Source: Pseudodonghicola flavimaris (GTDB taxonomy: Bacteria > Pseudomonadota > Alphaproteobacteria > Rhodobacterales > Rhodobacteraceae). From it: DNA of 64,000 nucleotides. The stretch spans positions 62,001 through 126,000 of the forward strand of contig NZ_JASNJD010000009.1 of assembly GCF_030164425.1 (NCBI RefSeq). The letters run 5' to 3'. A program made the translations under genes and the position numbers. The notes beneath the pieces were generated by a model. That model saw only the letters and a list, made by a program, of their open reading frames with translations. It made no database searches and was not told where the DNA came from. Below are positions 41,962 through 60,014 of the stretch, one piece after another; positions within the stretch are counted from its first letter, which is position 1; each line of letters opens with the position of its first letter.

Positions 41962-43701
41962 CTATGCCTCTCCCCGCAGCCTCGCGGTTTCCGCCGCATC
42001 CACCTGCGGCGGGCTGCCGGTCACCGCCACGCCGAACAGCCGGGCCGCCTGTTTCGGTGTATAGCGTCCCATTTCCACGTCATAGCGTACCGCCTCCGGC
42101 GGACGCCGGAACGGATCGCCATAGCCGCCGCCGCCGGGGGTGCGCACGTGCACCCGGTCACCGGGGCCCAGCGGGATATCCTGATCCTTGGAAAGATGCG
42201 GCGGCACATAGGCCTCGCCATCGCGCCAGACGGTGACATGGTTGACCGCCCCGTCGCCGCCGCCGAGCGCGCCCTGCGGTCCGGTCCGGCCGTGATCCAT
42301 GACGAAGCTCGCCCGCGCCTCGCCGCGCCGCAGCTCCACCTCGTAATCCAGACCGAAACCGCCGCGGTGCAGTCCGGCCCCGCCAGAGCCCTCATGCAGC
42401 GCATAGCGGTGGTAGAGCACCGGATAGGCCTGCTCCATGATCTCGATCGGCGGTGCCTTGGAGATGCCGATGGTCGAACAGCCGTTCGACAGCCCGTCGT
42501 GATCGGCGTTGCCGCCATAACCGCCGCCGGAGATCTGATACATCACGTAATCCCGTCCCCGCGCCGGATCGTGGCCGCCCAGGGCGAAATTGCCGCTGGT
42601 GCCCGCTGGTGCCGCCGTCACCCGGTCGGGAAGGGGGGCGACGAGGGCGGCAAAGACCGCCTCGGCGATCCGTTGCGATACCTCCGCCGCGCAGCCGGAG
42701 ACCGGGCGGGGATATTGCGCATCGAGGAAGGTGCCTTCGATCCCTGTCACCTCCAGCGGTTCAAACGCCCCGGCGCTCATCGGTACTTCGGGGAAGATAT
42801 GGCGGATCGCCAGGTAGACGGCGCTGAGCGTGGTGGCGCGGACCGAGTTCATCGGCCCGGCGCAGGGGGCGCTGGAGCCGTTGAAATCGAAGATCAGCCG
42901 GTCCTCCACCCGGGTTACTGCCAGCCGGATCGTCAGCGGCTCGTTCACCACTCCGTCGCTGTCGATCAGCGCCGTCGCTTCATACCGCCCCTCGGGGATA
43001 TCGGCGATGAAGGCGCGCATCTGGGTGGCGGCGCGGCGGCGCAGTTCCCCGATCGCCTCGCTGACCGTGTCGTCGCCATAGCGGTCGAGCAGCGCGTTCA
43101 GTCGCTCCTCCCCCACCAGCAGGGCGGCGGCCTGCGCCTTGACGTCGCCGATCCGCTGGTCGGCCACCCGGATGTTGGAGCAGATGATGGCATAGATTTC
43201 CTGATCCAGTTCACCCTGCTTGAACAGCCGCACCGGCGGCAGCCGCAGCCCCTCCTGTTCGACGGCGGTGGCAGAGGCGGAAAAGCCGCCGGGCACCGAG
43301 CCGCCGGTATCGGGCCAGTGGCCGGTATTCGACAGCCAGCAATAAAGCGCGCCGCCCCGATAGAACGGCATGGCAAAGCGCACGTCCATCAGATGGGTGC
43401 CGCCCAGATAGGGATCATTAACGATATAGATATCGCCGGGGGAGGGCGCGGGCGTCACTCCGCGCCGGATGCGGTCGATCAGCTGCCGGGTCGAATCCTG
43501 CATGGTGCCGACAAAGACCGGCAACCCCTGTGCGCCCTGCGCGATCAGCGCGCCGTCCTCGGCCGCATAGATACCATCGGAGCGGTCGTTCGCCTCGGCG
43601 ATCACGGGGGAAAAGGCGGCGCGGGAAAAGCTCAGGTCCATCTCGTCGCAGACCTGTTGCAGGCCGGCCTGGATGACTGAGAGGGTGACGGGATCAAGCA
43701 T
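41962..43701 (-). CDS. hyuB: Hydantoinase B / oxoprolinase-type subunit
   Basis: 579 residues from the ATG at 43701 (MLDPVTLSVIQAGLQQVCDEMDLSFSRAAFSPVIAEANDRSD); the open frame further upstream is antisense-like. HyuB proteins pair with HyuA to hydrolyse cyclic amides such as hydantoins or 5-oxoproline, or to carboxylate ketones. The GDIYIVNDPYLGGTHLMD segment, metal-site-like, and the glycine-rich GGGGYGDPFRRPPEAV C-terminus are typical. The start shares one base with the hyuA stop (TGATG). Upstream hyuA carries a MarR-type operator in front of it. Confidence 0.9.
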   Translation of the reverse strand: MLDPVTLSVIQAGLQQVCDEMDLSFSRAAFSPVIAEANDRSDGIYAAEDGALIAQGAQGLPVFVGTMQDSTRQLIDRIRRGVTPAPSPGDIYIVNDPYLGGTHLMDVRFAMPFYRGGALYCWLSNTGHWPDTGGSVPGGFSASATAVEQEGLRLPPVRLFKQGELDQEIYAIICSNIRVADQRIGDVKAQAAALLVGEERLNALLDRYGDDTVSEAIGELRRRAATQMRAFIADIPEGRYEATALIDSDGVVNEPLTIRLAVTRVEDRLIFDFNGSSAPCAGPMNSVRATTLSAVYLAIRHIFPEVPMSAGAFEPLEVTGIEGTFLDAQYPRPVSGCAAEVSQRIAEAVFAALVAPLPDRVTAAPAGTSGNFALGGHDPARGRDYVMYQISGGGYGGNADHDGLSNGCSTIGISKAPPIEIMEQAYPVLYHRYALHEGSGGAGLHRGGFGLDYEVELRRGEARASFVMDHGRTGPQGALGGGDGAVNHVTVWRDGEAYVPPHLSKDQDIPLGPGDRVHVRTPGGGGYGDPFRRPPEAVRYDVEMGRYTPKQAARLFGVAVTGSPPQVDAAETARLRGEA

Positions 43702-45782
43702 CAGGCGGCGCCTCCGATTTCGACGATGATATTGCCGTCGGCGTCGCCGGTGGCGCGGTCGCCCGGGTCGATCAGCAGGGTGGTGTCCATCTGCTGGACG
43801 ATGGCGGGGCCGGTGATCTCGAAGCCTTCGGGCAAATAATCGCGCCAATAGACGGGCGTGTCGTGCCAGCCGCCGCCGGCGTCGCTGTCGGCGAACCAGA
43901 CCGGGCGCCGCGATTTCTCGGCCTCTGCCAGCGTTGCCTTCCGCTCCGCCGGGTCGATCAGCGACGACAGATCGAGTTCGGCCCGCGCGCCGATGACCGA
44001 GCAATTGGCATTGACCACATTGGCGCGGATATCGTCCAGCGCCACGCGGAAGCGTTTGTAATAGGCGGCTTCGAACAGCTCCTGCAGGGTCTCGACCGCC
44101 ACATCCGGACGGTCGAGCGGCACCCGCAGCAGATGGGTTTGTCCCTGGAACTGCATATCGACGCTGTAGAGCCGGCGGATCCCGCGGATTTCGATATTCT
44201 CCTTACCGATCAGCGCCTCACCTTCCGCCGTCTGAAGGGCGAAGACCCGCGCCAGGTGGTCGGGGTCGAGCGTGTCGAGCGGTCTGTTCACCGTGGTCAC
44301 GAAATCGTGGCGCAGGTCGGCGACCACGCAGCCCAAAGCGTTGGTGATGCCGGGGCGGGCCGGCACCAGCACACGCGGGATCGACAGCTCCCGCGCCAGC
44401 GCCGTGGCATGCAACGGCCCGGCGCCGCCGAAGGCGAAGAGCGCGAAATCGCGCGGGTCGGCGCCCAGCGACACCGACACCATGCGGATGGCGCCGGCCA
44501 TCTTGGTGTTGGCCATGCGGATCACGGCGGCGGCGGCCTCGGTCGCCTCCAGTCCCAGCGGCGCGCCCAGGTTGCGGGCGAAGACGTCGCGCACATGGTC
44601 GATGGAGATGCCGCCCTCCACCGCGTTCAGCCCGGCCGGATCCAGCCGGCCCAGCAACAGGTTGGCATCGGAAATCGTCGGGCGCTCACCGCCGCGGCCA
44701 TAGCAGATCGGCCCCGGCCGGGCGCCGGCGCTTTCCGGTCCGACCTCCAGTAGCCCGGCCGGATTGACCTGCGCGATGGAACCTCCGCCGGCCCCCACGG
44801 TGCGCACATCGACCATCGGCACATGGATCGGCATGGCATATTCGATCTCGATCTCGTTCGACACGGTGGGTTCTGCCCCGCGGATCAGCGCCACATCGGT
44901 GGAGGTGCCGCCCATGTCATAGGTGATCAGGTTTTCGTGCCCCGACCGCCGCCCGGTATAGGCCGCCGCCATCACGCCGGAGGCGGGGCCGGACATCACC
45001 GTCTTGGCAGCCTCCAGCGCCACGCGCCGGGCCGAGACCATGCCGCCGTTGCCGTTCATCACCAGAACCTCGCCCCCATAGCCGCCTGCGGCCAGATGAT
45101 CGGTGAGCCGGCGGATATAGCGATCCAGCAACGGCTGGACCGAGGCGTTGACCGCCGCCGTCACCCCGCGTTCGAACTCGCGGCTTTCGGACAGCAGCGC
45201 ATGGCCCAGGGTGATGTGGTCGTTGGGCCAGAGATCGCGCAGGATCTCGGCGGCGCGCAGCTCATGTGCCGGATTGGCGTAGGCGTGGAGGAAATGGATC
45301 ACCACCGCCTCGCAGCCCTGATCCAGCAGCGCTTGACCGGCGGCGCGCAACCCCGCCTCGTCCAGGGGCACCAGCACGGTGCCTGCGGCATCCATCCGCT
45401 CGGCCACCTCAAGCCGCAGGTTGCGCGGGATCAGCGGAGTGAAATCGCCCTTCATCCCATAGGCCTGCGGCCGGGTGCGGCGGCCCAGTTCCAGCACGTC
45501 GCGGAAGCCGGCGGTGGTGATCAGCCCGGTTTTCGACAACTTGCGTTCCAGCACCGCGTTGGTGGTCGTGGTGGTCCCATGCACGATCAGGTCGAGCGCG
45601 GCCAGATCGCAGCCCGCCTCGGTCAGCGCGGTCAGCACCCCATGGGCCTGATTGTCCAGTGTGCTCGCCACCTTGGCCAGCCGCACCCGGCCGGTGCCGG
45701 GGTCAAGCTCGATCAGATCCGTGAAGGTGCCGCCGACATCGACGCCGACCACCGCGCCCGAGGGGGATTTCGCCATGCCCAT
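43701..45782 (-). CDS. hyuA: Hydantoinase A / oxoprolinase-type ATPase subunit
   Basis: 693 residues; the second Met (45776) is an alternative start. The ASKHA-type ATPase fold has VVGVDVGGTFTDLIELD at the N-terminus, HGTTTTTNAVLERK and YDMGGTSTDVALI. HyuA couples ATP hydrolysis to opening of an amide ring with HyuB. First gene of a hyuAB operon. A 16-bp dyad (45800-45815) shared with two other promoters in the island lies 17 bases upstream of the ATG. Exact substrate unknown; context suggests a lactam produced from an N-heterocycle. Confidence 0.9.
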   Translation of the reverse strand: MGMAKSPSGAVVGVDVGGTFTDLIELDPGTGRVRLAKVASTLDNQAHGVLTALTEAGCDLAALDLIVHGTTTTTNAVLERKLSKTGLITTAGFRDVLELGRRTRPQAYGMKGDFTPLIPRNLRLEVAERMDAAGTVLVPLDEAGLRAAGQALLDQGCEAVVIHFLHAYANPAHELRAAEILRDLWPNDHITLGHALLSESREFERGVTAAVNASVQPLLDRYIRRLTDHLAAGGYGGEVLVMNGNGGMVSARRVALEAAKTVMSGPASGVMAAAYTGRRSGHENLITYDMGGTSTDVALIRGAEPTVSNEIEIEYAMPIHVPMVDVRTVGAGGGSIAQVNPAGLLEVGPESAGARPGPICYGRGGERPTISDANLLLGRLDPAGLNAVEGGISIDHVRDVFARNLGAPLGLEATEAAAAVIRMANTKMAGAIRMVSVSLGADPRDFALFAFGGAGPLHATALARELSIPRVLVPARPGITNALGCVVADLRHDFVTTVNRPLDTLDPDHLARVFALQTAEGEALIGKENIEIRGIRRLYSVDMQFQGQTHLLRVPLDRPDVAVETLQELFEAAYYKRFRVALDDIRANVVNANCSVIGARAELDLSSLIDPAERKATLAEAEKSRRPVWFADSDAGGGWHDTPVYWRDYLPEGFEITGPAIVQQMDTTLLIDPGDRATGDADGNIIVEIGGAA

Positions 45783-47523: not shown

Positions 47524-48819
47524 ATGACCATCAAGACACCGAAATCCACAGGAACGACGCGCCGGGGCGCGCTGAAGACTCTGGCCGGCGGCGCCGCCGC
47601 GGCCACCAGCCTGCCGCTCTGGGCGCGCTATGCACAGGCGCAGACCTCCGAGCCGATCCGGGTCGGCTTCCAGATGCACCGCACCGGCATCGGCGCCGCC
47701 TATGGCCGTTGGTACGGCCGCACCACCGAGGCCGCCGCGCGGATCATCAACGAGGCGGGCGGCATCAATGGCCGACCGCTGGAAATCGTGGCCGAGGACG
47801 ATGGCACCGATCCCAAGCGTGGCGCCGAGGTGGTCGAGAAATTCGCCACCCAGCTTAAATGCGATATCGGCTACGGCACGCTGTTCAGCCATGTGGTCGC
47901 TGGCTCCGCCCCCCGCGCGGGGGAGCTGAAACTGCCCTATTTCATCGTTTCCGAAGGCCATCAGCTGGCCTCCGGCGGGCTCAACCGCTATACCGTGCAA
48001 CCCGGCATCACCGATGTGAAAAGCCAGGTGAAGGCGATGGCGCCCTTCGTCGCCTCGACGCTGGGCAAGAAGGTCACGATGATCTTCCCCGACTATGCCT
48101 TCGGCCACGATCACCGCGATTTCTTCTCCGAGGCGATCGAGGCGCAGGGCGGCGAAGTGGTGGCCAAGCTGGCGATCCCGCCGACCGAGACCTCCTTCAC
48201 CAAGTATTTCCCCAAGATCCCGCGCGAGACCGAGGTGATCTATCACGTCATGGTCGGCCCCGCCGTGCTGACCTTCGTCAAGGAGATGGGCGAATTCTTC
48301 GGGCCGAGCCGGCCGGAGATGTTCGGCTTCATCGACAGTCTGGAGGCGGTCGACATCTCCAGCCCGGGGCTGGAGTTCCTCGAAGGCACCTATTTCTGGG
48401 AAGGCATGCCGCGCTATGCGCAGGCCGATCAGACGCCTTATGACAAGTTCTTCCGCGAACAGGTCGGTGTCGATGCCAATGGCGCCTCGGTGGCCGATCC
48501 CAAGGACGTGGCGACCTATGCGCATATGTTCGCCTGCTGGGAGACGCTCTTCGTCATCAAGGCGGGGATGGAGGCCGCGGGCTATCAGTCCTTCAAGGAT
48601 CGCCCGGCGCTGATCGAGGCGGTCGAGGCGATGACCGAGATGCCGCAGTCGAACGAGCACCCGCAGGGGGCCAAGCTGTTCAACGGCAAGACCCACCAGG
48701 TGTTCGGGCCGCAGTACATCAGCCAGGTCACGGACGGTAAGCTGGTGGTGAAACACACGGCCTCGATCGAGGATACGCTCTATCCCGACGAGACCGACTA
48801 CACCACGCAGTCGTTCTGA
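47524..48819 (+). CDS. HAAT-type ABC transporter substrate-binding protein (Tat leader)
   Basis: 431 residues from the ATG at 47524. The leader TTRRGALKTLAGGAAAATSLPLWARYAQAQ has a twin-arginine pattern, so export of a folded protein is likely. The mature domain (PIRVGFQMHRTGIGAAYGRW...INEAGGINGRPLEIVAEDDGTDPKRGAEVV) is the periplasmic-binding type-I fold of Leu/Ile/Val, amide and urea binders. First gene of an importer operon. Ligand unknown, presumably the island's substrate. The next gene, a LysE exporter, starts at the last base of the stop codon. Confidence 0.88.
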   Translation: MTIKTPKSTGTTRRGALKTLAGGAAAATSLPLWARYAQAQTSEPIRVGFQMHRTGIGAAYGRWYGRTTEAAARIINEAGGINGRPLEIVAEDDGTDPKRGAEVVEKFATQLKCDIGYGTLFSHVVAGSAPRAGELKLPYFIVSEGHQLASGGLNRYTVQPGITDVKSQVKAMAPFVASTLGKKVTMIFPDYAFGHDHRDFFSEAIEAQGGEVVAKLAIPPTETSFTKYFPKIPRETEVIYHVMVGPAVLTFVKEMGEFFGPSRPEMFGFIDSLEAVDISSPGLEFLEGTYFWEGMPRYAQADQTPYDKFFREQVGVDANGASVADPKDVATYAHMFACWETLFVIKAGMEAAGYQSFKDRPALIEAVEAMTEMPQSNEHPQGAKLFNGKTHQVFGPQYISQVTDGKLVVKHTASIEDTLYPDETDYTTQSF

Positions 48820-49454
48820 TGGAGGTCCTGAGCCTCGCGCATCTGGTCTTTTTCGTGCCGGCGGCCATTCTGGTCGCCGCCACGCCGGGGGCCAATAACA
48901 TGCTGTCGCTGGTCAACGGCATCCGCTCCGGGGCCGGGGCAACGGTGCTGAGCCTGTCTGGCCGCATGGCGGCATTCCTGCTGTTGCTGCTGGGGGTGTC
49001 TCTGGGGCTCGGGACGCTGTTTGAGACCTCGGCGCTGCTGTTCAGCGCCGTGAAATGGGCCGGGGTCGCCTATCTGGGATGGATGGGCGTCGCCATGATC
49101 CGCCGCGGTTCTCTCGGTCTGGCGCAGGCCGGGGCCGTCGGCGCGCGCAGCGCCGGGCGGATGGCGCGGCATGAGTTTCTGGTGGCGATCACCAACCCCA
49201 AGGCGGTGCTGCTGTTCACCGCCTTTCTGCCGCAGTTCGTGCTGCCGGGGGCGGCGTTTGCAGGCCAGCTCTGGGCGCTGGGGCTGATTTATCTGGCGAT
49301 CGAATTCTCGGTGGCGAGCCTTTATGCCGCCACCGGCGCCCGGATGGGGCGGGTGGTGACCTCGCCCAGGCGTGAAACCTGGATGGCGCGGACCAGCGGC
49401 GCGGTGCTGCTGGCCATGGCCGGCCTGTTGGCCACGGCACGACGGGGCAGCTAG
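48819..49454 (+). CDS. LysE family exporter embedded in the importer operon
   Basis: 211 residues with six predicted TM segments. ATPGANNMLSLVNGIRSGAGATVLSLSGR near the N-terminus and FLVAITNPKAVLLFTAFLPQF are the LysE/RhtB hallmarks. The ATG shares one base with the stop of the binding-protein gene (TGATG). An exporter translated together with an importer suggests antiport or disposal of an amino-acid-like product of catabolism. Confidence 0.88.
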   Translation: MEVLSLAHLVFFVPAAILVAATPGANNMLSLVNGIRSGAGATVLSLSGRMAAFLLLLLGVSLGLGTLFETSALLFSAVKWAGVAYLGWMGVAMIRRGSLGLAQAGAVGARSAGRMARHEFLVAITNPKAVLLFTAFLPQFVLPGAAFAGQLWALGLIYLAIEFSVASLYAATGARMGRVVTSPRRETWMARTSGAVLLAMAGLLATARRGS

Positions 49455-49461
49455 CAGACAG

Positions 49462-50388
49462 ATGGATTTCGGACCTTACCTTTTGCTCGCCTCGCTTGAG
49501 GGCGCGGTGACCGCTGCTGTGCTGGCGCTGACCGCCGTCGGGCTCAGCCTTGTCTTCGGCGTCATGCGGGTGGTCAATGTCGCCCATGGCGAATTCTTCA
49601 TGCTGGGCGCGGTTCTGGCCTGGTGGATCGCCAGCCATATCGGCGGCGATCCGGCGCTGGGTTTCATCGCCGCGCTGATCCTGGCGCCGCTGGCGGTGGG
49701 CGCGCTGGCGGCGCTGGCCGATATGACGATCCTGCGGCGGGTGAACTACGACCCCGAACGCACCATCGTGGCCACCATCGGCATTCTCTATATCCTGCAG
49801 CAGGTCACCCTGATGACCTATGGCCCCGAGGCCCGGCCGGTCGAGCCGCCGTTCAACAGCCGTCTGGCGCTGCCCTGGTTCGAATGGGGCGAGACCGGGT
49901 TGCAGATGTATTTCCCCTGGGGGCTGAGCACCACCAGCTACAAGCTCTTCGTCATTGCCGCCGCGGCGGCGGTTCTGATGGGCGTCTGGGCGCTGATGGC
50001 GCGCACCCGGATCGGCCTGCTGATGCGGGCCACCCAGCTGGATCGCGACATGGCGCTGGCCTTCGGCATCCCGGTCGAGCGGGTCTATGCCATGGTCTTC
50101 GGTCTCGGCGGGGCGCTGGCGGCGCTGGGAGCGGTGCTGATCGTGCCGATCCAGCAGGCGCATTACCTGATGGGGGGCGATCCGCTGCTGCTGTCCTTTA
50201 TCGTGGTGATCATCGGCGGCCTGGGCAGCCTGCCCGGCACGGTGGTCGCCGCCATCCTGATCGGCCTCTCCGACGGGATCATCTCGGTCTTCTTCTCGCC
50301 GACGCTGGCCAAGATCCTTGCCACCCTGCTGGTAGCGCTGGTTCTGGTGTTCCGGCCCGAGGGCCTTTTCGGGATGAAAACACGATGA
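49462..50388 (+). CDS. HAAT ABC transporter permease (LivH-like)
   Basis: 308 residues from the ATG at 49462 (MDFGPYLLLASLEGAVTAAVLALTAVGLSLVFGVMRVVNVAHGEFFMLGA). The NVAHGEF motif and GGLGSLPGTVVAAILIGLSDG are typical of LivH. The frame is open upstream but inside the LysE gene. It overlaps livM by 4 bases. Confidence 0.92.
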   Translation: MDFGPYLLLASLEGAVTAAVLALTAVGLSLVFGVMRVVNVAHGEFFMLGAVLAWWIASHIGGDPALGFIAALILAPLAVGALAALADMTILRRVNYDPERTIVATIGILYILQQVTLMTYGPEARPVEPPFNSRLALPWFEWGETGLQMYFPWGLSTTSYKLFVIAAAAAVLMGVWALMARTRIGLLMRATQLDRDMALAFGIPVERVYAMVFGLGGALAALGAVLIVPIQQAHYLMGGDPLLLSFIVVIIGGLGSLPGTVVAAILIGLSDGIISVFFSPTLAKILATLLVALVLVFRPEGLFGMKTR

Positions 50389-51329
50389 GCGAGACCACCA
50401 AGATCGTTGCCCTGCACGGTGGGCTGCTGGTGCTGCTGGTGACGCTGCAGTTCCTGCTGCCGGCCTATCACCACGGCAACCTGGCCCGCATCATGGTGCT
50501 GGCGAGCTTCGCCATCGGCTATAACGTGATGTTCGGCTATACCGGTCTGCTCAGCCTCGGCCATGCGCTGTTCTTCGCCGCCGGCATGTACGGCATGGGG
50601 CTGGCGGTGCAATATGCCGGCGCCGGTCCGGTGGTGGCGCTGCTGGCGGGGCTCGCCGTCTCGGTCGTGGTGGCGCTGGTCGTGGGTCTGCTGGCGCTGC
50701 GCACTGCCGGGGTCGGCTTCATGATCGTGACGCTGATGTTCGCCCAGGCCGGCTATCTGACCATCCTCTATTTCACCACCTGGACTCGCGGCGACGAGGG
50801 GCTGGTGCTGCAGCAGGCGCAGCGGACGATCGGAAGCCTCGACCTGTCGCAGCCGGGGCCGCGCTATTTCGCGGCGCTGCTGCTGTTCGCGATCTGCTTT
50901 CTGGTGACGCTGTGGATGGTGCGGGCGCCCTTCGGCAAGGTGCTGATCGCCATCCGCGAGAACGAGGAACGCGCCCGCATGCTGGGCTATGACGTGTTCC
51001 GCTACAAACTCGCGGCGGTGGTGATCTCCGGCACGCTTTGCGGATTGTCCGGGGCCGCCTACGGGCTTCTCTTCGGCTATGTCGGGGCGACCTTCGCCTC
51101 GGTGCAATATTCGATCTTCCCGCTGCTCTGGGTGCTGCTGGGGGGCGCCGGCACGGTGATCGGGCCGCTGGTCGGGACGCTCTTCATGTTCTACCTGATC
51201 GATCTCTCCAGTTCGGTGACCAGTGCCTATATGCTGGTGGCCGGCGTGGTGCTGGTGCTGCTGACGCTCTTCGCGCCGCAGGGGCTGGTGGGCGAGCTGC
51301 GTGCCCGGGTCTGGAGGTGGCTGCCATGA
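50385..51329 (+). CDS. HAAT ABC transporter permease (LivM-like)
   Basis: 314 residues. The ATG at 50385 overlaps the livH stop. The LivM motif FGYTGLLSLGHALFFAAGMY and the IAIRENEERARMLGYDVFRYKLAAVVISG loop are intact, followed by GGAGTVIGPLVGTLF. Pairs with the LivH-like permease. Confidence 0.92.
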   Translation: MSETTKIVALHGGLLVLLVTLQFLLPAYHHGNLARIMVLASFAIGYNVMFGYTGLLSLGHALFFAAGMYGMGLAVQYAGAGPVVALLAGLAVSVVVALVVGLLALRTAGVGFMIVTLMFAQAGYLTILYFTTWTRGDEGLVLQQAQRTIGSLDLSQPGPRYFAALLLFAICFLVTLWMVRAPFGKVLIAIRENEERARMLGYDVFRYKLAAVVISGTLCGLSGAAYGLLFGYVGATFASVQYSIFPLLWVLLGGAGTVIGPLVGTLFMFYLIDLSSSVTSAYMLVAGVVLVLLTLFAPQGLVGELRARVWRWLP

Positions 51330-52036
51330 GCCTGCTGTCCACCCGCGGCCTGTCGCGCAGCTTTTCCGGCCTGCGCGCGGTGCATGAGGTCGATTTCGCC
51401 CTGCCCGAGGGCGAAATCCGCGCCCTGATCGGCCCGAACGGCGCCGGCAAGACCACTTTCGTCAGCCTGCTCTGCGGTCGCATCCCGCCCAGCTCGGGCC
51501 AGGTGATCTTCGACGGGCAGGACATCTCTGCCCTGCCGGCGCACCGGCGCATCGCACTGGGTATGGCCTATACCTTCCAGATCACCTCGGTGTTCTCACG
51601 GCTCAGCGTCTATGAAAACGTCGCCTTGGCGGCGCGGCGCCGGGTGGCCGGCCGCGCTGCGGTCGATCGGGCGGTGATGCGGGCGCTGGAGCAGGCGGGC
51701 TTGCACGATCGCCCCGATCAGGCCGCCGGCGATCTGAGCTATGGTCACCAGCGTCTGCTGGAAATCGCCATGGGGCTGGCGCAGGCGCCGCGCCTGCTGA
51801 TCCTCGACGAGCCGACCCAGGGCCTGGCCGACAGCGAAGTCGCCGCTTTCAAGGCGCTGATCCGCGAGCTCAAGGCGACCACCACCATTCTGCTGATCGA
51901 ACATAACATGAGCGTGGTGATGGAGACCGCCGACCGGGTCACGGTGCTGAACTTCGGTGAAATCCTGGCCGAGGGCACGCCGCAGCAGATCCACGCCAAC
52001 GCGGAGGTTCAGGCCGCTTATCTGGGGACCGGATGA
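51326..52036 (+). CDS. HAAT ABC transporter ATPase (LivG-like)
   Basis: 236 residues from the ATG at 51326, overlapping livM by 4 bases. Walker A GPNGAGKTT, signature LSYGHQRLLEIAMGLAQ, Walker B LLILDEPTQGLAD and the H-loop EHNM are intact. The LSYG variant of the signature is normal for LivG. Confidence 0.93.
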   Translation: MSLLSTRGLSRSFSGLRAVHEVDFALPEGEIRALIGPNGAGKTTFVSLLCGRIPPSSGQVIFDGQDISALPAHRRIALGMAYTFQITSVFSRLSVYENVALAARRRVAGRAAVDRAVMRALEQAGLHDRPDQAAGDLSYGHQRLLEIAMGLAQAPRLLILDEPTQGLADSEVAAFKALIRELKATTTILLIEHNMSVVMETADRVTVLNFGEILAEGTPQQIHANAEVQAAYLGTG

Positions 52037-52731
52037 TGCTGGAACTCGACAAGATCAACGCCGGCTACGGTCGCGCCCAGATCCTGCGCGACCTGAGCCT
52101 GACCGTCGCGCCCGGTGAAATCCTGTGCCTGCTGGGCCGCAACGGCGCCGGCAAGACCACGACGATGAAGGCGATCATGGGTCTGTTGCCGCTGATGTCG
52201 GGGACGGTCCGGCTGGCGGGGGCCGAGATCAGCGCGCTGCCCGCCCATAAGGTGGCGGGGCGGGGCATCGGCTATATCCCGCAGGGCCGCCGGCTTTTCG
52301 GCGAGCTGACGGTGGCGCAGAACCTTGAGATCGGGCTGCGCGCCGGCGCCTCGGGCCCCGAGGTGCTGGAAGATGCGCTGCAGCTGTTCCCGCGGCTGCG
52401 CGAGCGGCTGGCCCAGCGGGCGCAGACACTGTCGGGGGGCGAGCAGCAGATGCTGGCCACCGCCCGCGCGCTCTGCCTGCAGCCGCGCATCCTGCTGCTG
52501 GACGAGCCGACCGAGGGGCTGCAGCCGTCGATGATCGCGGCGATCCGCGATGTCACCACGCTGATGCGCGACCGTGGCGTCGGCATCCTGCTGGTCGAAC
52601 AGGGGGTCGACGCGGTGCTTTCGGTCGCCGACCGGGTGGCCTTCATCGAGAACGGCCGCAATCTGGAAACGCTGGAGGCGGAGGCGCTGCGGCGCGATCC
52701 CAGGCTGATCTCGAAGCATCTCGGCGTGTGA
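52033..52731 (+). CDS. HAAT ABC transporter ATPase (LivF-like)
   Basis: 232 residues, overlapping livG by 4 bases. Walker A GRNGAGKTT, signature LSGGEQQMLATARAL, Walker B ILLLDEPTEGLQP. Last gene of the importer operon; it is followed by a palindromic repeat and the convergent marR gene. Confidence 0.93.
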   Translation: MMLELDKINAGYGRAQILRDLSLTVAPGEILCLLGRNGAGKTTTMKAIMGLLPLMSGTVRLAGAEISALPAHKVAGRGIGYIPQGRRLFGELTVAQNLEIGLRAGASGPEVLEDALQLFPRLRERLAQRAQTLSGGEQQMLATARALCLQPRILLLDEPTEGLQPSMIAAIRDVTTLMRDRGVGILLVEQGVDAVLSVADRVAFIENGRNLETLEAEALRRDPRLISKHLGV

Positions 52732-53431: not shown

Positions 53432-54280
53432 GTGGCCATGAGCCTGTATCTGCGCCCCAGCGAATTGCAAGAGGCGCTCGCCGCTTTGGCGGAGGCGCCA
53501 GTGACGATTGCGGCCGGTTGCACGGATCTGTTCCCGGCGACCGAGGCGCCGGCGCTGTCCGGGCCGGTGCTGGATATCACCGCGATCGGCGCACTGCGCG
53601 GCATCGTCCGGACGGCGGCGGGCTGGCGGATCGGTGCCACCACCAGCTGGACCGAGATCGCCGGGGCCGATCTGCCTGCCGGATTCGACATGCTGCGGCA
53701 GGCGGCGCGGCAGGTCGGCGCACTGCAAATCCAGAATGCCGGGACCATCGCCGGAAACCTCTGCAATGCCTCTCCTGCCGCCGACGGGGTGCCGCCGCTG
53801 CTGGCGCTCGGGGCGGAGGTGGAGCTGGCCTCCGCCCGGGGAACGCGGCGGTTGCCATTAGCGGCCTTTCTTCAGGGGCCGCGGCGCACCGCCCGGCAGG
53901 CCGATGAGCTGATGGTCGCGGTTCATGTGCCGGCAGAGGCCGGGCAGGGCGCCAGCCGGTTCCTCAAGCTCGGCGCGCGGAACTCTCTGGTCATCTCCAT
54001 CGCCATGGTGGCGGTACGGGTGGCGGCGGCGGAGGGGCGCGCCACCGAAGTCGCGCTGGCTGTCGGTGCCTGCGGGCCGCTGGCGGTCCGGCTGCCCGGG
54101 GCAGAGGCGGCGCTGCACGGGGTGTCGCTGGCCGATCTGGCGGCGGCCCTGCCGGCGGCGGAGGTGGCGGCGGCCCTGGCGCCGATCGACGATATCCGTG
54201 CTGACGCGGCGTATCGGGTGACAGCGGCGGACGAGTTGCTGCGCCGGGGTTTGGCAGAGGTCGCGGAGGCTTTGGCATGA
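53432..54280 (+). CDS. Molybdenum hydroxylase FAD-binding subunit (CoxM-like)
   Basis: 282 residues from the GTG at 53432, or 280 from the ATG two codons later. It belongs to the VAO/PCMH-type FAD subunit of the xanthine-dehydrogenase family: VTIAAGCTDLFP (FAD pyrophosphate loop) and QVGALQIQNAGTIAGNLCNASPAADGVPPLLALGA (second FAD motif) are intact. It carries electrons from the 2Fe-2S centres to the acceptor. The next gene overlaps by 4 bases, so the subunits are coupled. Confidence 0.9.
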   Translation: MAMSLYLRPSELQEALAALAEAPVTIAAGCTDLFPATEAPALSGPVLDITAIGALRGIVRTAAGWRIGATTSWTEIAGADLPAGFDMLRQAARQVGALQIQNAGTIAGNLCNASPAADGVPPLLALGAEVELASARGTRRLPLAAFLQGPRRTARQADELMVAVHVPAEAGQGASRFLKLGARNSLVISIAMVAVRVAAAEGRATEVALAVGACGPLAVRLPGAEAALHGVSLADLAAALPAAEVAAALAPIDDIRADAAYRVTAADELLRRGLAEVAEALA

Positions 54281-57012
54281 AGGATGCAGCGGGCATCACG
54301 GTGACGGTGAACGGCACCCCCACGGTTCTGGGGGTTGCCCCGGGGCGGCGGCTGTCCGAGGCGCTGCGCGAGGAGCTGGGTCTGCGCGGCACCAAGGTCG
54401 GCTGCGACGCCGGCGATTGCGGCGCCTGTACCGTTCTGCTGGACGGTGCCCCGGTCTGCGCCTGCCTGACCCCGTCGGTTCAGGCCGAGGGGCGCGATCT
54501 GCGCACCGTCGAGGGGCTTGCGGAGATCCGGTCAGAGTTGCAGGCGGCCTTCCTGCGTCATGGTGCGGCGCAATGCGGCATCTGCACGCCGGGCATGCTG
54601 ATGGCGGCGGCGGCGCTTTTGCAGGCCAATGCGGCGCCGACCCGGGCCGAGGTGGAAACCGCGCTGGGGGGCGTGCTCTGCCGTTGCACCGGCTATGCCA
54701 AGATCGTCACCGCGATCCTGGATGCCGCCGGTCAGGGGCTGCGACCGGCGCCGCAGGCGGCGCCGGCGGCGGGCCAGGCGGTGGGGGCGCGGATCGAACG
54801 GTTGGACGGCGGTCCCAAGGTCGATGGGCGCGAGGCCTTCGGCGCGGATATCGCGCCGGAGCGGGCGCTCTGGGTCCGGGCGGTGCGGGCGCCGCATTTC
54901 GCCGCGCGCTTCAGCCTCGGCGATGTCACCGGTTGGGCAGCGGCCAGGGGGGTGATGGTCTTCACCGCGGCGGATATGCCGGGGCGTAACCTCTTCGGGG
55001 TCATCCCCGATTGTGCCGATCAGCCGGCGCTGGCCGCAGGGCGGATCCGGATGCGGGGGGAGGCCGTCGCCGCGATCGCCGGAGAGCGGGCGCGGGTCGA
55101 GGCGCTGTCCTTCGACGATTTCCCGGTGGACTGGCAGGAGGAGACTGCGCTGCTCGACCCCGCGGCGGCGCGGGCGGGTGGGGCGGCGCTGCTGCATGCC
55201 GACCGGCCGGAGAATATCCTGATCGGCGGGCTGGTTCACAGCGGCGATCCCGAGGCGGGGCTGGCCGCCGCGGCGCATGTGGCCGAAGGCGCGGCGGAGA
55301 CCCCCTTTGTCGAACATGCCTATATCGAGCCTGAGGCCGGTGCCGCCTGGATGGAGGCCGGCACGCTGGTCATTCAGGCCTGCACCCAGGCGCCGGTGAT
55401 GGATCGCGACGATATTGCCGGGCTGATGGGGTTGCCGCCGGAGCAGGTTCGGGTGATCCCTTCGGCCATCGGCGGCGGCTTCGGATCGAAGCTCGACCTG
55501 TCGTTGCAGCCGCTGATCGGGCTGGTGGCGCTGAAGACCGGGCGGCCGGCGCGGATGATCTATTCCCGCCGCGAGAGCATGGCCACGACCACCAAACGGC
55601 ACCCGGCGCGGATGACCGCGCGGGCGGGGGTCGATGCGGCGGGCCGGTTGCTGGCGATGGAGTTCGACGGCGACTTCGACACCGGCGCCTATGCCAGCTG
55701 GGGCCCGACCGTGGCGGTACGGGTGCCGGTGCATGCCTCCGGCCCCTACCGGATCCCGAATTACCATGCCGAGGCACGGGCGGTGCACACCAACGGGCCG
55801 CCTTCGGGTGCGTTTCGCGGCTTCGGGGTGCCGCAGGCGGGTATTCTGCAGGAAACCCTGTTCGACGATCTGGCGGAGCGGGCGGGCATGGACCGGCTGG
55901 CCTTTCGCCGTCTCAACGCGCTTCGGGACGGTGATCGCAGCGTTTGCGGGCAGGAGATGCAGGGCGTCGGCATCGGCGATTGTCTGGAGGCGCTGCAACA
56001 GCCCTGGGACGAGGCGCTGGCGGCGGCCGAGGCCTTCAATGCCGCGCATGAAGGGCTGCGCCGGGGCGTCGGCGTCGCCTCCTGCTGGTATGGCTGTGGC
56101 AACACCGGCATGCCGAACCCCTCGACCATGCGGCTGGGGATCACCGTGGGCGGCCGGCTGCGGTTGCACCAGGGGGCGACAGATATTGGCCAGGGATCGA
56201 ATACGGTGATCCCGCAGATCTGTGCCGATGCGTTGGGGGTGCCGCTGGACCAGTTCGATTTCGTCGGCCCCGATACCGCGCTGACGCCGGATGCCGGCAA
56301 GACCTCGGCCTCGCGCCAGACGGTGGTGTCGGGCAATGCGGCGCTGAAGGCGGGGCAGGCGTTGCGGGCCAGGCTGCTGGCGATGACCAATATGGGGGCG
56401 GCGGCGGAGATCGGTTTCGCCCCCGGGGTGGTCATCGTCTCCGACGGGGCGCAGCGGCGGCAGATCGACCTCAAGGCGCTGCCGGTCGATGCCCATGGCT
56501 ATGCGATCGCGGTGGAGGAAAGCTACGACCCGCCGACCGAGGCGCTGGACGAGAATGGTCAGGGCCGTCCCTATGCCGTCTATGGCTATGGTGCCCATCT
56601 GGCGGAGGTCGAGGTGGATATGACCCTGGGCACCGTCCGGGTGATCCGGCTGACCGCGGCGCATGATCTGGGCCAGGTGATCAACCCGCTGCTGGCCGAG
56701 GGGCAGATCGAGGGCGGCGTGGCGCAGGGGCTGGGTCTGGCGCTGATGGAGGAATTCATTCCGGGCCGGACCGAGAACCTGCACGATTACCTGATCCCCA
56801 CGGTTGGCGACATGCCGGAGATCCGACCGATCCTGATCGAAACGCCGGACCCCGAGGGCCCCTATGGCGCCAAGGGTCTGGGCGAACACGCGCTGATCCC
56901 CACCGCGCCGGCGATCCTGAACGCGATCCGCCATGCCAGCGGCGCCAAGGTTACCCGGCTGCCGGCGCTGCCGCATCGGGTTCTGGCGGCCATCCGGGAG
57001 GCGCGGGGATGA
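54277..57012 (+). CDS. Molybdenum hydroxylase, fused 2Fe-2S + Mo-cofactor subunit
   Basis: 911 residues that join what are usually two proteins. Residues 1-155 form a CoxS-type domain with the plant-type cluster (C43, C48, C51, C61/C63) and the second 2Fe-2S cluster (C100, C103, C135, C137; CGICTPG and CRCTGY). From about 175 the CoxL/XdhB Mo domain follows, with GGGFGSKLD, the substrate-channel GAFRGFGVPQAG and the catalytic Glu870 in YGAKGLGEHAL. Family enzymes hydroxylate electron-poor carbons of N-heterocycles or aldehydes using water. Substrate here unknown; the neighbouring Hnr-like gene suggests a pyridine-type ring such as nicotinate or a relative. Confidence 0.9.
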   Translation: MKDAAGITVTVNGTPTVLGVAPGRRLSEALREELGLRGTKVGCDAGDCGACTVLLDGAPVCACLTPSVQAEGRDLRTVEGLAEIRSELQAAFLRHGAAQCGICTPGMLMAAAALLQANAAPTRAEVETALGGVLCRCTGYAKIVTAILDAAGQGLRPAPQAAPAAGQAVGARIERLDGGPKVDGREAFGADIAPERALWVRAVRAPHFAARFSLGDVTGWAAARGVMVFTAADMPGRNLFGVIPDCADQPALAAGRIRMRGEAVAAIAGERARVEALSFDDFPVDWQEETALLDPAAARAGGAALLHADRPENILIGGLVHSGDPEAGLAAAAHVAEGAAETPFVEHAYIEPEAGAAWMEAGTLVIQACTQAPVMDRDDIAGLMGLPPEQVRVIPSAIGGGFGSKLDLSLQPLIGLVALKTGRPARMIYSRRESMATTTKRHPARMTARAGVDAAGRLLAMEFDGDFDTGAYASWGPTVAVRVPVHASGPYRIPNYHAEARAVHTNGPPSGAFRGFGVPQAGILQETLFDDLAERAGMDRLAFRRLNALRDGDRSVCGQEMQGVGIGDCLEALQQPWDEALAAAEAFNAAHEGLRRGVGVASCWYGCGNTGMPNPSTMRLGITVGGRLRLHQGATDIGQGSNTVIPQICADALGVPLDQFDFVGPDTALTPDAGKTSASRQTVVSGNAALKAGQALRARLLAMTNMGAAAEIGFAPGVVIVSDGAQRRQIDLKALPVDAHGYAIAVEESYDPPTEALDENGQGRPYAVYGYGAHLAEVEVDMTLGTVRVIRLTAAHDLGQVINPLLAEGQIEGGVAQGLGLALMEEFIPGRTENLHDYLIPTVGDMPEIRPILIETPDPEGPYGAKGLGEHALIPTAPAILNAIRHASGAKVTRLPALPHRVLAAIREARG

Positions 57013-57121: not shown

Positions 57122-58582
57122 ATGACGGAGCGCGCCGAACGCCCCCGTGAGGAGAAGATCCGCTGCGATGCCTGCCCGGTGATGTGCTATATCGCTGAGG
57201 GCCGCGCCGGCGCCTGTGACCGCTATGCCAATCAGGGCGGCCGCATTGTCCGCTGCGATCCGCTCACCGTGCTGGACCGCCGTATCGCCAAGGGCGATGA
57301 AATCCGCCCCTTCCTCAAGGCCGAATGGGACGGGGCGCTGCTGAAGGATGACGATCTTTTCGTCACCGCGGTGGGCGCCGGCACCACCTATCCCGATTAC
57401 AAGCCCGCCCCCTTCATCGTCTCGCGCGCGGTCGATGGGGCCGATTTCGTCACCGTGGTGACCGAGGCGATCTTTTCCTACTGCGGGGTGAAGGTGAAGA
57501 TCGACACCGACCGTCACCTGGGCCACGAGGGCGCGGTGATCCGCGCCGGGGGTGAGGTGGTGGGGCTGATGATCACCTCGGAATACGGCTCGCAGATGAT
57601 GTCCCTGGGCGGGGTCGATCACCTCACTGGCGGGTCGAAACCGGAAGGGCGCGTCACCTGCGACACCCTCATGCGGCTCTGTAACCGCGAGGCGGTGGAG
57701 CTGGAGGTCGAGGGCGGCGCCACCGTCGTCGTGCAGGCCGGCCAGCCGCCCATCGTCGATGGCCACCGCGAGGAAAGGATGCGGGTCGGCTGCGGTTCTG
57801 CCACCATCGGCATGTTCGCATCGCAATGGCAGGGGCTGGTCGATGAGGTGGTGGTGGTCGACGATCACATCACCGGCGTGGTCAGCGAACATCAGGCAGG
57901 CAAGGTGCTGGGCTGGCCGGACACCGGCATCAAGATCAACGGCCGCCGGTCCACGCCGGGGCGCTATTTCCAGGTGGCCGATCCTGGGCTGGGCTGGGGC
58001 GGCACCGATATCACCGATCCGCTGACCATCCTCGGCGTCTGGAACCCGAAGAAGGGTGCGCGCCCGGGGCTGAGCCTGCTGATGGTCTCCACCACCGGGG
58101 AGCAATACGGATACTACGTGCTCGACGCCGAGCTGGTGCCGCAGCCGCAACCGCTGCCCGAGACACTGAAACCCTCGGTCGATCTGATCGCCGAGAATTG
58201 CGAACCCGCGCTCTGCACGGTGATGTTCATGGGGGGTGCCGGCGGTTCCCTGCGCTCGGGGGTGACGAAGAACCCGGTGCGGCTGACCCGCTCGGTTCAG
58301 GCGGACCGTACCCGGGTGACGGTGGGCGGTGCGCCCGCCTATGTCTGGCCTGGCGGCGGTATCACCATCATGGCCGATGTGACCCGGATGCCGGATAACG
58401 CCTTTGGCTATGTGCCCACCCCGGCCATCGTGGCACCGCTGGAATTCACCCTGTCGCGCGCCGAATACCGGGCGCTTGGCGGCCACGATGATCGCGCCCG
58501 CGCGGTGGAGGATATCCTTGAGCACGGCGGCGACTACGGTGCCGATGTCCGGGCGGTGCCCCCCGGCGACAAGGCGGGCTGA
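57122..58582 (+). CDS. 6-hydroxynicotinate reductase-like Fe-S protein
   Basis: 486 residues. An N-terminal cysteine cluster C15, C18, C22, C32 with C45 (CDACPVMC...) fits an iron-sulfur centre. The rest resembles proteins annotated as 6-hydroxynicotinate reductase. The Eubacterium barkeri enzyme of that name reduces 6-hydroxynicotinate to 1,4,5,6-tetrahydro-6-oxonicotinate and contains covalently bound flavin. Residues 379-382 read SGVT, close to the S/T-G-A-T site flavinylated by ApbE, and the next gene is ApbE-like. It lies 109 bases after the Mo hydroxylase with a GGAGG site (57110-57114). Homology is from memory; the substrate may differ. Confidence 0.75.
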   Translation: MTERAERPREEKIRCDACPVMCYIAEGRAGACDRYANQGGRIVRCDPLTVLDRRIAKGDEIRPFLKAEWDGALLKDDDLFVTAVGAGTTYPDYKPAPFIVSRAVDGADFVTVVTEAIFSYCGVKVKIDTDRHLGHEGAVIRAGGEVVGLMITSEYGSQMMSLGGVDHLTGGSKPEGRVTCDTLMRLCNREAVELEVEGGATVVVQAGQPPIVDGHREERMRVGCGSATIGMFASQWQGLVDEVVVVDDHITGVVSEHQAGKVLGWPDTGIKINGRRSTPGRYFQVADPGLGWGGTDITDPLTILGVWNPKKGARPGLSLLMVSTTGEQYGYYVLDAELVPQPQPLPETLKPSVDLIAENCEPALCTVMFMGGAGGSLRSGVTKNPVRLTRSVQADRTRVTVGGAPAYVWPGGGITIMADVTRMPDNAFGYVPTPAIVAPLEFTLSRAEYRALGGHDDRARAVEDILEHGGDYGADVRAVPPGDKAG

Positions 58583-58585
58583 ACG

Positions 58586-59440
58586 GTGAGCGGCCCGCAG
58601 ATCGCCTTTCTGCCCGACGGGCGGCGGCTGCACCTGCAGCACGGGCCGATCGACCTGATCATCGATGCCGAAGGGCCGGGACGCGCCGCCGCGCTGCGCG
58701 CCGCGGCGACCCGGTTCGAGACGGTGCTGGAGGAGCTGGTGGCGGAACTTTCCCTTCTGCGCGCCCCGGTCGGCCCCCGCCCCGGGGGGGAGATCGCCCG
58801 CGTCATGCAGGCCGCCACGCATCCCTTCGCCGCCGAGGTGATCACCCCGATGGCCGCCGTCGCCGGGGCGGTGGCCGAGGCGGTGCTGGCGGCGATGACC
58901 GGGGCCGGCGCGCTGACCCGCGCCTATGTCAACAACGGCGGCGATATCGCCCTGCACCTCGCCCCGGGTCAGAGCTTTGCCGCCGCCATCGTCTCCGACA
59001 GGTCCGGCGCGGTGCCGGCCCGGGCGCGGATCCCGGCGGCGAGCCCGGTGCGCGGCATCGCCACCTCCGGCCGTCACGGCCGCAGCCATTCCCTCGGTAT
59101 CGCCGACAGTGTCACCGTGCTGGCGGCCACTGCCGCCGCCGCCGATGCCGCCGCCACCATGATCGCCAATGCGGTGGACCTGCCGGGCAACCCGAAAGTC
59201 CGGCGTTGCCCGGCCCGCGCGCTTGCTCCGGACAGCGATCTGGGCGATCGGCTGGTGACCACCGGCCTCGATCCCCTGACCCCGGCGGAGGTGGCCCGGG
59301 CGCTGGCCCGGGGGCGTGGCTTTGCCGCGTACTGCCTTGAGCGGGGGTTGATCCACGCCGCGCTGCTCCACCTCGCCGGCCAGAGCCTGACGCTCGGCGC
59401 GGCTGACCTCATCTCATCGAAGGACCCCTGCCATGCCTGA
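58586..59440 (+). CDS. UPF0280 / ApbE-like protein, predicted flavin transferase
   Basis: 284 residues with a GTG start 3 bases after the previous stop. ApbE-superfamily features are the NNGGD segment at 116-120, GIATSGRHGRSHSLGIADSVTV (157-178) and the ADAAAT helix (186-191), matching the conserved GGD, ATSG...H and ADALAT blocks of FAD:protein FMN transferases. UPF0280 proteins have no assigned function. Its position directly behind an Hnr-like protein with a candidate SGVT acceptor site suggests it attaches FMN to that protein. Overlaps the next gene by 8 bases. Confidence 0.75.
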   Translation: MSGPQIAFLPDGRRLHLQHGPIDLIIDAEGPGRAAALRAAATRFETVLEELVAELSLLRAPVGPRPGGEIARVMQAATHPFAAEVITPMAAVAGAVAEAVLAAMTGAGALTRAYVNNGGDIALHLAPGQSFAAAIVSDRSGAVPARARIPAASPVRGIATSGRHGRSHSLGIADSVTVLAATAAAADAAATMIANAVDLPGNPKVRRCPARALAPDSDLGDRLVTTGLDPLTPAEVARALARGRGFAAYCLERGLIHAALLHLAGQSLTLGAADLISSKDPCHA

Positions 59441-60014
59441 GTTTCCGCTGCGCAAGACGATGATCTTCATCGAGGATATCCACCACGATGGCGGCCCGCC
59501 CCCGGCACTGCCCCGCCGCCGCGCCGCCATCGTCGCAGTGGTGAAGAACCCCTTTGCCGGCCGCTACGTCGCCGATCTGCAACCGGCGATGGAGGATCTC
59601 AAACCCCTGGGCCTGATGATGACCGACCGGCTGATCGAGGCGATGGGCGGGGTCGAGGGCATCGACGGCTACGGCAAGGCCGGGCTCGCCGGCGAGGCGG
59701 GAGAGCTGGAGCATACCGCGCTCTGGCATGTGCCGGGCGGCTACGCCATGCGCGCCAGGCTGGGCGAGGCCAAGGCGATCGTGCCCTCGGCGATGAAGGT
59801 GGGCGGCACCGGCACCCGGATCGACGTGCCGCTCGGCCATATCAACGCGGCTTACGTGCGCAGTCATTTCGACGCGATGGAGGTCGGTGTGCCGGACGGC
59901 CCGCGCGCCGATGAACTTCTCTTTGCCCTGGCGATGAGCCGGGGCGGCCGCATCCATGACCGGATGGGCGGGCTCACCGTGGCGGAGGTCAGGGGCGAAG
60001 ACGGGTTGCGCTGA
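59433..60014 (+). CDS. DUF1185 'amino acid synthesis' family protein
   Basis: 193 residues, starting inside the UPF0280 gene. It resembles the DUF1185 family, which is often labelled 'amino acid synthesis protein' without biochemical basis. Conserved-looking stretches are KTMIFIEDIHHDGG, AIVAVVKNPFAGRYV and VPSAMKVGGTGTRIDVPLGHINAAYVRSHFDAMEV. No cofactor motif is recognised. The coupling with the Hnr-like and UPF0280 genes implies a step of the same pathway, possibly hydrolysis or isomerisation after ring reduction. Last gene of the operon. Confidence 0.8.
   Translation: MPEFPLRKTMIFIEDIHHDGGPPPALPRRRAAIVAVVKNPFAGRYVADLQPAMEDLKPLGLMMTDRLIEAMGGVEGIDGYGKAGLAGEAGELEHTALWHVPGGYAMRARLGEAKAIVPSAMKVGGTGTRIDVPLGHINAAYVRSHFDAMEVGVPDGPRADELLFALAMSRGGRIHDRMGGLTVAEVRGEDGLR

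Follow-up and report, generated by a model that had tools for sequence, protein, structure and literature searches.

The Hnr-UPF0280 locus

The window (the whole stretch of Pseudodonghicola flavimaris DNA that was analysed, 64,000 nucleotides long) carries a gene for a protein resembling 6-hydroxynicotinate reductase (Hnr) and, directly after it, a gene of the UPF0280/COG2122 family. A molybdenum hydroxylase and an ABC importer lie upstream of Hnr and are read in the same direction. The genes are as follows.

41962-45782, minus strand: hydantoinase/oxoprolinase-like pair (HyuA at 43701-45782, HyuB upstream on the map; ORFs read directly)
47524-52731, plus strand: branched-chain-type ABC importer, comprising a binding protein, two permeases and two ATPases (ORFs read directly)
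53432-54280, plus strand: FAD subunit of the xanthine dehydrogenase family (PF00941, 3e-40; PF03450)
54277-57012, plus strand: hydroxylase subunit, fused [2Fe-2S] and molybdopterin parts (PF01799, PF02738, PF20256)
57122-58582, plus strand: Hnr-like N-heteroaromatic reductase, 486 aa, 39-45% identical to clostridial Hnrs of complete nicotinate clusters
57164-57217, plus strand: Cys15, Cys18, Cys22 and Cys32 of the Hnr-like protein, invariant in a 29-sequence alignment; presumed Fe-S ligands
58586-59440, plus strand: UPF0280/COG2122 protein, 284 aa, ApbE superfamily, Hnr-linked clade (NF003322; PDB 2O34; clade support 1.0)
59433-60014, plus strand: amino acid synthesis family protein (PF06684, AA_synth; Pfam 1e-67)

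The Hnr stop codon TGA is followed by ACG and then by the GTG start of UPF0280, and this gap of 3 bp agrees with the original prediction, made from the letters of the DNA, that the second frame (58586-59440) begins 3 bases after the first (57122-58582). The AA_synth gene in turn overlaps the UPF0280 gene by 8 bp. PF06684 genes also occur in the Hnr clusters of Desulfosporosinus and Desulfobacula; none was found near the Hnr locus of genome G707, and loci L250, L251 and L253 have two in tandem after UPF0280 where the window has one. A LysE-like ORF (48819-49454) sits among the importer genes, and importer and Hnr are arranged likewise in Fuscovulum ytuae.

Close homologues of the window Hnr-like protein bear the RefSeq name 6-hydroxynicotinate reductase, and its membership in the family follows from homology to Hnrs that lie in nicotinate gene clusters of Desulfosporosinus and clostridia; a figure of 42% identity has been reported for Hnr homologues (PMC3511419). 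It has no match above cut-off in Pfam and NCBIfam (Hnr hits to Pfam GCV_T_C, the best of them partial and at 0.0024, were judged too weak), and its predicted fold (pLDDT 71.6) has no match in the PDB at E <= 0.001. The hydroxylase at 54277-57012 presumably makes the hydroxylated ring that Hnr reduces. Electrons likely come from a ferredoxin-NADP reductase where the gene for one adjoins Hnr, as observed in Sagittula (L250:8039-8866) and on a Comamonadaceae plasmid (L251:7908-8681).

Hnr and UPF0280 occur together

A single sample of 398 Pseudomonadota genomes was searched with each of the two proteins: both were present in the same 32 genomes, neither in 366, and only one of the two in none. 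These carriers fall in 16 genera and are therefore not all independent; the pairing is nevertheless far above chance, and UPF0280 adjoins Hnr in 30/30 loci examined. Hnr is also found in 14 of 398 genomes of the phylum of Youngiibacter, most of these proteins being 39-45% identical to that of the window, and UPF0280 is adjacent in nearly all 14. Departures from this are a gene truncated by contig ends, a second copy with UPF0280 two genes off, and a divergent paralogue, L161. The pair was also seen in a Desulfobacula genome and spans three phyla in all. The paralogue L161 (L180:6639-10549), which has no UPF0280 nearby and two enamidase-like genes beside it, may reduce a different ring.

Several other candidates were set aside: two weak Hnr matches near UPF0280 genes proved to be radical SAM proteins, having in common with Hnr only the N-terminal Cys motif, and a set of ferredoxin-domain matches contains no Hnr save the Desulfobacula one. 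In the alphaproteobacterial genome G016 (C1:2969808-2971213), Hnr reads as two overlapping pieces in different frames; the gene may be frameshifted or split, or the assembly may be wrong there.

What surrounds the pair is more variable. The complete nicotinate cluster of Desulfosporosinus comprises split Ndh subunits, enamidase, Hnr, UPF0280, AA_synth, a hydroxyisobutyrate dehydrogenase-like protein and an aconitase-like protein (the last by inspection), and clostridial clusters likewise hold split Ndh subunits, enamidase, Hnr and UPF0280. No enamidase was found in the window or elsewhere in the same genome, and the HyuAB pair is a possible ring-opening enzyme in its place; such genes are found in other Hnr clusters, including those of Fuscovulum (HyuA) and Sagittula, and HyuAB seems to stand in for enamidase in several alphaproteobacterial clusters (the window, L249, L250, L252). 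The substrate of these Hnrs may therefore not be nicotinate. The ring-opening enzyme varies among Hnr clusters, being enamidase or HyuAB, while UPF0280 is constant.

UPF0280 as a distant relative of ApbE

The window UPF0280 protein scores 352.9 bits against NF003322/PRK04334 (cut-off 290), which places it in that family, and matches PDB 2O34 (Desulfovibrio DVU1097) at E 3.3e-5. Two stretches are of interest.

58931-58945, plus strand: N116-N-G-G-D120 (Asn116 in 31/31 Hnr-linked UPF0280s; Glu or Asp in 79/80 others)
59060-59158, plus strand: ATS161G...GR166S...AD187AAAT191 block (S161, D187 and T191 near-invariant in 110 UPF0280s)

It has no match to Pfam ApbE (PF02424); the best relative tested, a clostridial Hnr-linked UPF0280, reaches 25.3 bits against a cut-off of 25.6 (E 1.3e-5). 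Sequence comparison thus supports UPF0280 as a distant ApbE relative, and motif spacing against an ApbE of the same genome, judged by eye, would align Ser161 and Asp187 with Ser241 and Asp285 of V. cholerae ApbE. The ApbE-like blocks of the original prediction survive in part: NNGGD, ATSG and ADAAAT are present, but the His proposed to follow ATSG is Phe in most close relatives, and the conserved residue near ATSG is Arg166. The HxxDPxTG block that bears the ApbE catalytic His257 is missing, with Arg166 nearby in the Hnr clade; this loss need not be fatal because ApbE with His257 changed to Gly has lowered, not abolished, activity (PMC12052999). No signal peptide or lipobox is apparent in the UPF0280 sequence, as would fit a cytosolic partner.

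Two clades of UPF0280 are seen. The 31 Hnr-linked proteins, drawn from three phyla, form a single clade with support 1.0. The 80 comparison proteins came from a scan of genome contigs of Desulfobacterota, Chloroflexota, Bacillota, archaea and others; their flanks contain COG1900 (DUF39, PF01837) in 29 cases, a NIL-ferredoxin protein in 30 and Hnr in none. Position 166 is Arg in 31/31 members of the Hnr clade, and His in 68 and Pro in 9 of the 80 others. Since the Hnr-linked proteins form one clade with residues of its own, Hnr and UPF0280 have evidently travelled together, and the clade-specific Asn116 and Arg166 make the pattern that would be expected of partner-specific enzymes.

Purified Hnr of Eubacterium barkeri reportedly contained covalently bound flavin. 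A flavin-transfer role for UPF0280 is plausible, fitting both that covalent flavin and the distant homology to ApbE. Alternatively, the flavin of Hnr could be attached without UPF0280, either autocatalytically (through an 8-alpha histidyl or similar bond) or by a true ApbE, with UPF0280 acting as a subunit, a chaperone or a source of FMN by FAD pyrophosphatase activity. In its favour, two Hnr histidines, His249 and His257, are each conserved in 47/48 sequences, and the genome encodes two ApbEs, both scoring over the Pfam cut-off. We nonetheless consider this alternative rather improbable, since it leaves unexplained why UPF0280 alone stays with Hnr when the ring-opening enzyme differs (enamidase, HyuAB) and why the Hnr partners form a separate clade. 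The two ApbE genes (G000:C5:51126-51959 and G000:C19:20499-21332; L001 and L002) are near-identical with similar neighbours and likely represent a duplicated block.

COG1900, the second partner

COG1900/HcyBio (PF01837), the family of the L-aspartate semialdehyde sulfurtransferase L-ASST (MA1821) and of the coenzyme M synthase MMP16, is a constant partner of UPF0280, as Hnr is. In Desulfovibrio, COG2122 is needed together with DUF39 and NIL-ferredoxin for homocysteine synthesis, and the fitness profiles of COG2122 and DUF39 mutants correlate with r = 0.98 (PMC5764234). Desulfosporosinus has one UPF0280 beside Hnr and a second beside COG1900. Among 148 genomes of the archaeal phylum sampled, COG1900 was found in 119 and UPF0280 in 117; among the matches listed, the two genomes with COG1900 only are small assemblies, and none has UPF0280 only. 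An exception to the pairing is the control genome of Synechococcus elongatus, with a COG1900 match and no UPF0280 match. No COG1900 was found on plasmids, and an odd COG1900 in genome G865 is explained by contig ends that interrupt the gene. Two or four electrons, delivered by a ferredoxin-like partner, are required for the COG1900 reaction (PMC12068725); a flavin would therefore be reasonable in these proteins too.

The published view of COG2122 is a different one. Its likeness to ApbE seemingly excludes the flavin-binding region, and a persulfide proposal has been reported (PMC5764234); MA1715 was termed a sulfur-trafficking protein in 2025 (PMC12068725) and is needed at low sulfide (PMC12068725, PMC5764234). 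UPF0280/COG2122 could accordingly handle sulfur, through sulfide assimilation, persulfide delivery or Fe-S maturation, with an ApbE-like fold that has lost flavin chemistry. Its clients would then be the Hnr Fe-S clusters and the COG1900 Cys; each partner family consists of Fe-S proteins or of proteins that operate alongside them. Yet aerobic Rhodobacterales and Rhizobiales have UPF0280 only with Hnr, whose reaction needs no sulfur transfer, and there is no Cys among the conserved residues listed for 110 UPF0280s. Moreover, MMP16 does not require its conserved Cys, and COG1900s of the MMP16 type lack that residue and function without it (PMC12068725), yet their genomes keep UPF0280, most of them also holding a Cys-bearing paralogue. 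We regard sulfur handling as a serious contender that is unlikely on balance, and rank it below maturation of both partners by an ApbE-like UPF0280.

The proposed acceptor residue

Two stretches of the Hnr-like protein come into question as a flavin attachment site.

57443-57463, plus strand: candidate flavinylation motif D108-F-V-T111-V-V-T114 (D/E108, T/S111 and T114 each in 48/48 Hnrs)
58256-58267, plus strand: S379-G-V-T382, the site first proposed (382 is V, A or C in some UPF0280-linked homologues)

The original prediction had UPF0280 place FMN on Thr382 of an SGVT sequence said to be close to the S/T-G-A-T site of known ApbE substrates. SGVT does occupy residues 379-382 (nt 58256-58267), position 382 is T or S in 45/48 Hnrs, and an Ala-to-Val change in the ApbE motif is tolerated at about half efficiency (PMC12052999). 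However, the residue that ApbE modifies is the final one of D-x-x-[ST]-G-A-[ST] (PMC12052999), and the stretch lacks an Asp six residues upstream, position 376 being Ser in its place; position 379 is Ala in most sequences (41). Across 49 Hnrs with one gap, position 382 is T in 42, S in 3, and V, A and C in 1 each, and those with V, A or C all have an adjacent UPF0280. The COG1900 stretch that hhalign pairs with position 382 has T, S or A. Neither the conservation of SGxT nor its likeness to ApbE sites holds up, and the three UPF0280-linked Hnrs with Val, Ala or Cys at 382 tell against Thr382 in just the way the prediction had named as its refutation. The residue is very likely wrong, and FMN transfer to it by UPF0280 highly improbable; the wider proposal of UPF0280 as the flavin transferase of Hnr loses its site but keeps its distant ApbE homology and its constant partner.

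Thr114 is most likely the better acceptor candidate, judging from the alignments. The sole conserved [DE]xx[ST]xx[ST] in the Hnr alignment is DFVTVVT at 108-114, in which the D/E, S/T and T of the ApbE-substrate pattern are invariant and Gly-Ala is replaced by Val-Val; the sole one in the COG1900 alignment is DVVTTGT at 42-48. From column composition, 0.02-0.05 such motifs would be expected by chance per family (0.02-0.04 for Hnr), and one was conserved in 1/21 other families tested; the motif was spotted after the alignments had been seen, and these statistics are therefore post hoc. In COG1900, D42, T45 and T48 are invariant in 75/75 sequences and position 47 is Gly or Ala (D-x-x-T-x-[GA]-T). 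The catalytic Cys at 53 is lost in 19/75 COG1900s that retain the motif, which therefore outlasts the catalytic cysteine. The coenzyme M synthase-type COG1900d/MMP16 proteins (L213-L230, L111) lack Cys53 and keep D-V-V-T-x-[AG]-T without exception.

Distant homology of Hnr to COG1900 was also considered and has no statistical support. Whether the hhalign profiles were shallow, deep or aided by secondary structure, the P values, each for one comparison, lay at 0.05-0.3 with alternative registers, and 43 control neighbour families score equally. The best local alignment pairs the Hnr and COG1900 motifs (P 0.05 for one comparison, unrelated controls scoring as high), and the two families may have the motif in common by chance. 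The predicted COG1900 fold (pLDDT 91.3) has no PDB match at E <= 0.001; with both models lacking a match, structure offers no link between the families.

A model for UPF0280 function

The sequences show a conserved pair of genes, two clades of UPF0280 and the motif; from these we infer a chemistry, an acceptor site and a substrate. The Hnr-like protein would be a cytosolic flavin reductase with Fe-S clusters, and ferredoxin would supply the electrons with which it reduces an N-heteroaromatic ring that the molybdenum hydroxylase next to it has hydroxylated. UPF0280 would be the maturase devoted to this reductase, a divergent ApbE-superfamily protein of the cytosol that splits FAD and attaches FMN through a phosphoester to a threonine of its partner, most likely Thr114 of [DE]108-x-x-[TS]111-x-x-T114 and not Thr382. 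The second UPF0280 clade could do the same on COG1900, that is, on L-aspartate semialdehyde sulfurtransferase and coenzyme M synthase, at D-x-x-T-x-[GA]-T. That UPF0280 is such a partner-specific ApbE-like maturase of Hnr and, in the other clade, of COG1900, acting at the D-x-x-T-x-x-T threonine, is the reading we tentatively prefer, at a confidence somewhat short of even. Several features seen in the sequences weigh against it: the ApbE score below cut-off, the missing His257 block, the Val-Val of the Hnr motif, the two ApbEs of the genome itself and the Synechococcus exception.

More broadly, and more doubtfully, UPF0280/COG2122 may be a widespread second branch of protein flavinylation, cytosolic and acting on enzymes without an FMN_bind domain, which brings FMN to the last Thr of D-x-x-[ST]-x-x-T in two families of ferredoxin-linked reductases, Hnr and COG1900. 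The COG1900 enzymes are those by which anaerobes and methanogens form homocysteine and coenzyme M. Homocysteine synthesis in Desulfovibrio depends on COG2122, which is also important when Methanosarcina assimilates sulfide. If true, a single hypothesis would explain the role of COG2122, the electron carrier of COG1900 and how Hnr comes by its covalently bound flavin, and it names one threonine in either partner family.

Comparison with known systems

The window Hnr-like protein is homologous to the E. barkeri Hnr (EC 1.3.7.1) family. Clostridial Hnrs have an extra N-terminal 4Fe-4S dicluster domain that the alphaproteobacterial form lacks, and the window cluster differs from the E. barkeri system in lacking an enamidase; its substrate may be a different N-heterocycle. 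COG1900 resembles Hnr in its ferredoxin-linked reduction and differs in that there is no significant profile similarity between the two. Among UPF0280 proteins, that of the window combines NNGGD with Arg166, whereas those linked to COG1900 carry [ED]NGGD, with His or Pro at 166 in most. Unlike ApbE (PF02424), UPF0280 has no apparent lipobox or signal peptide, a Pfam score below cut-off and no HxxDPxTG, and its partner carries no FMN_bind domain; like ApbE, it has a redox protein as operon partner, and the similarity between the two extends over the middle of the protein, with the NGGD-type motif, the Ser of TSG and the Asp and Thr of AD..AT. The motifs of Hnr and COG1900 in turn resemble the D-x-x-[ST]-G-A-[ST] that ApbE modifies, with Val-Val standing for Gly-Ala in Hnr.
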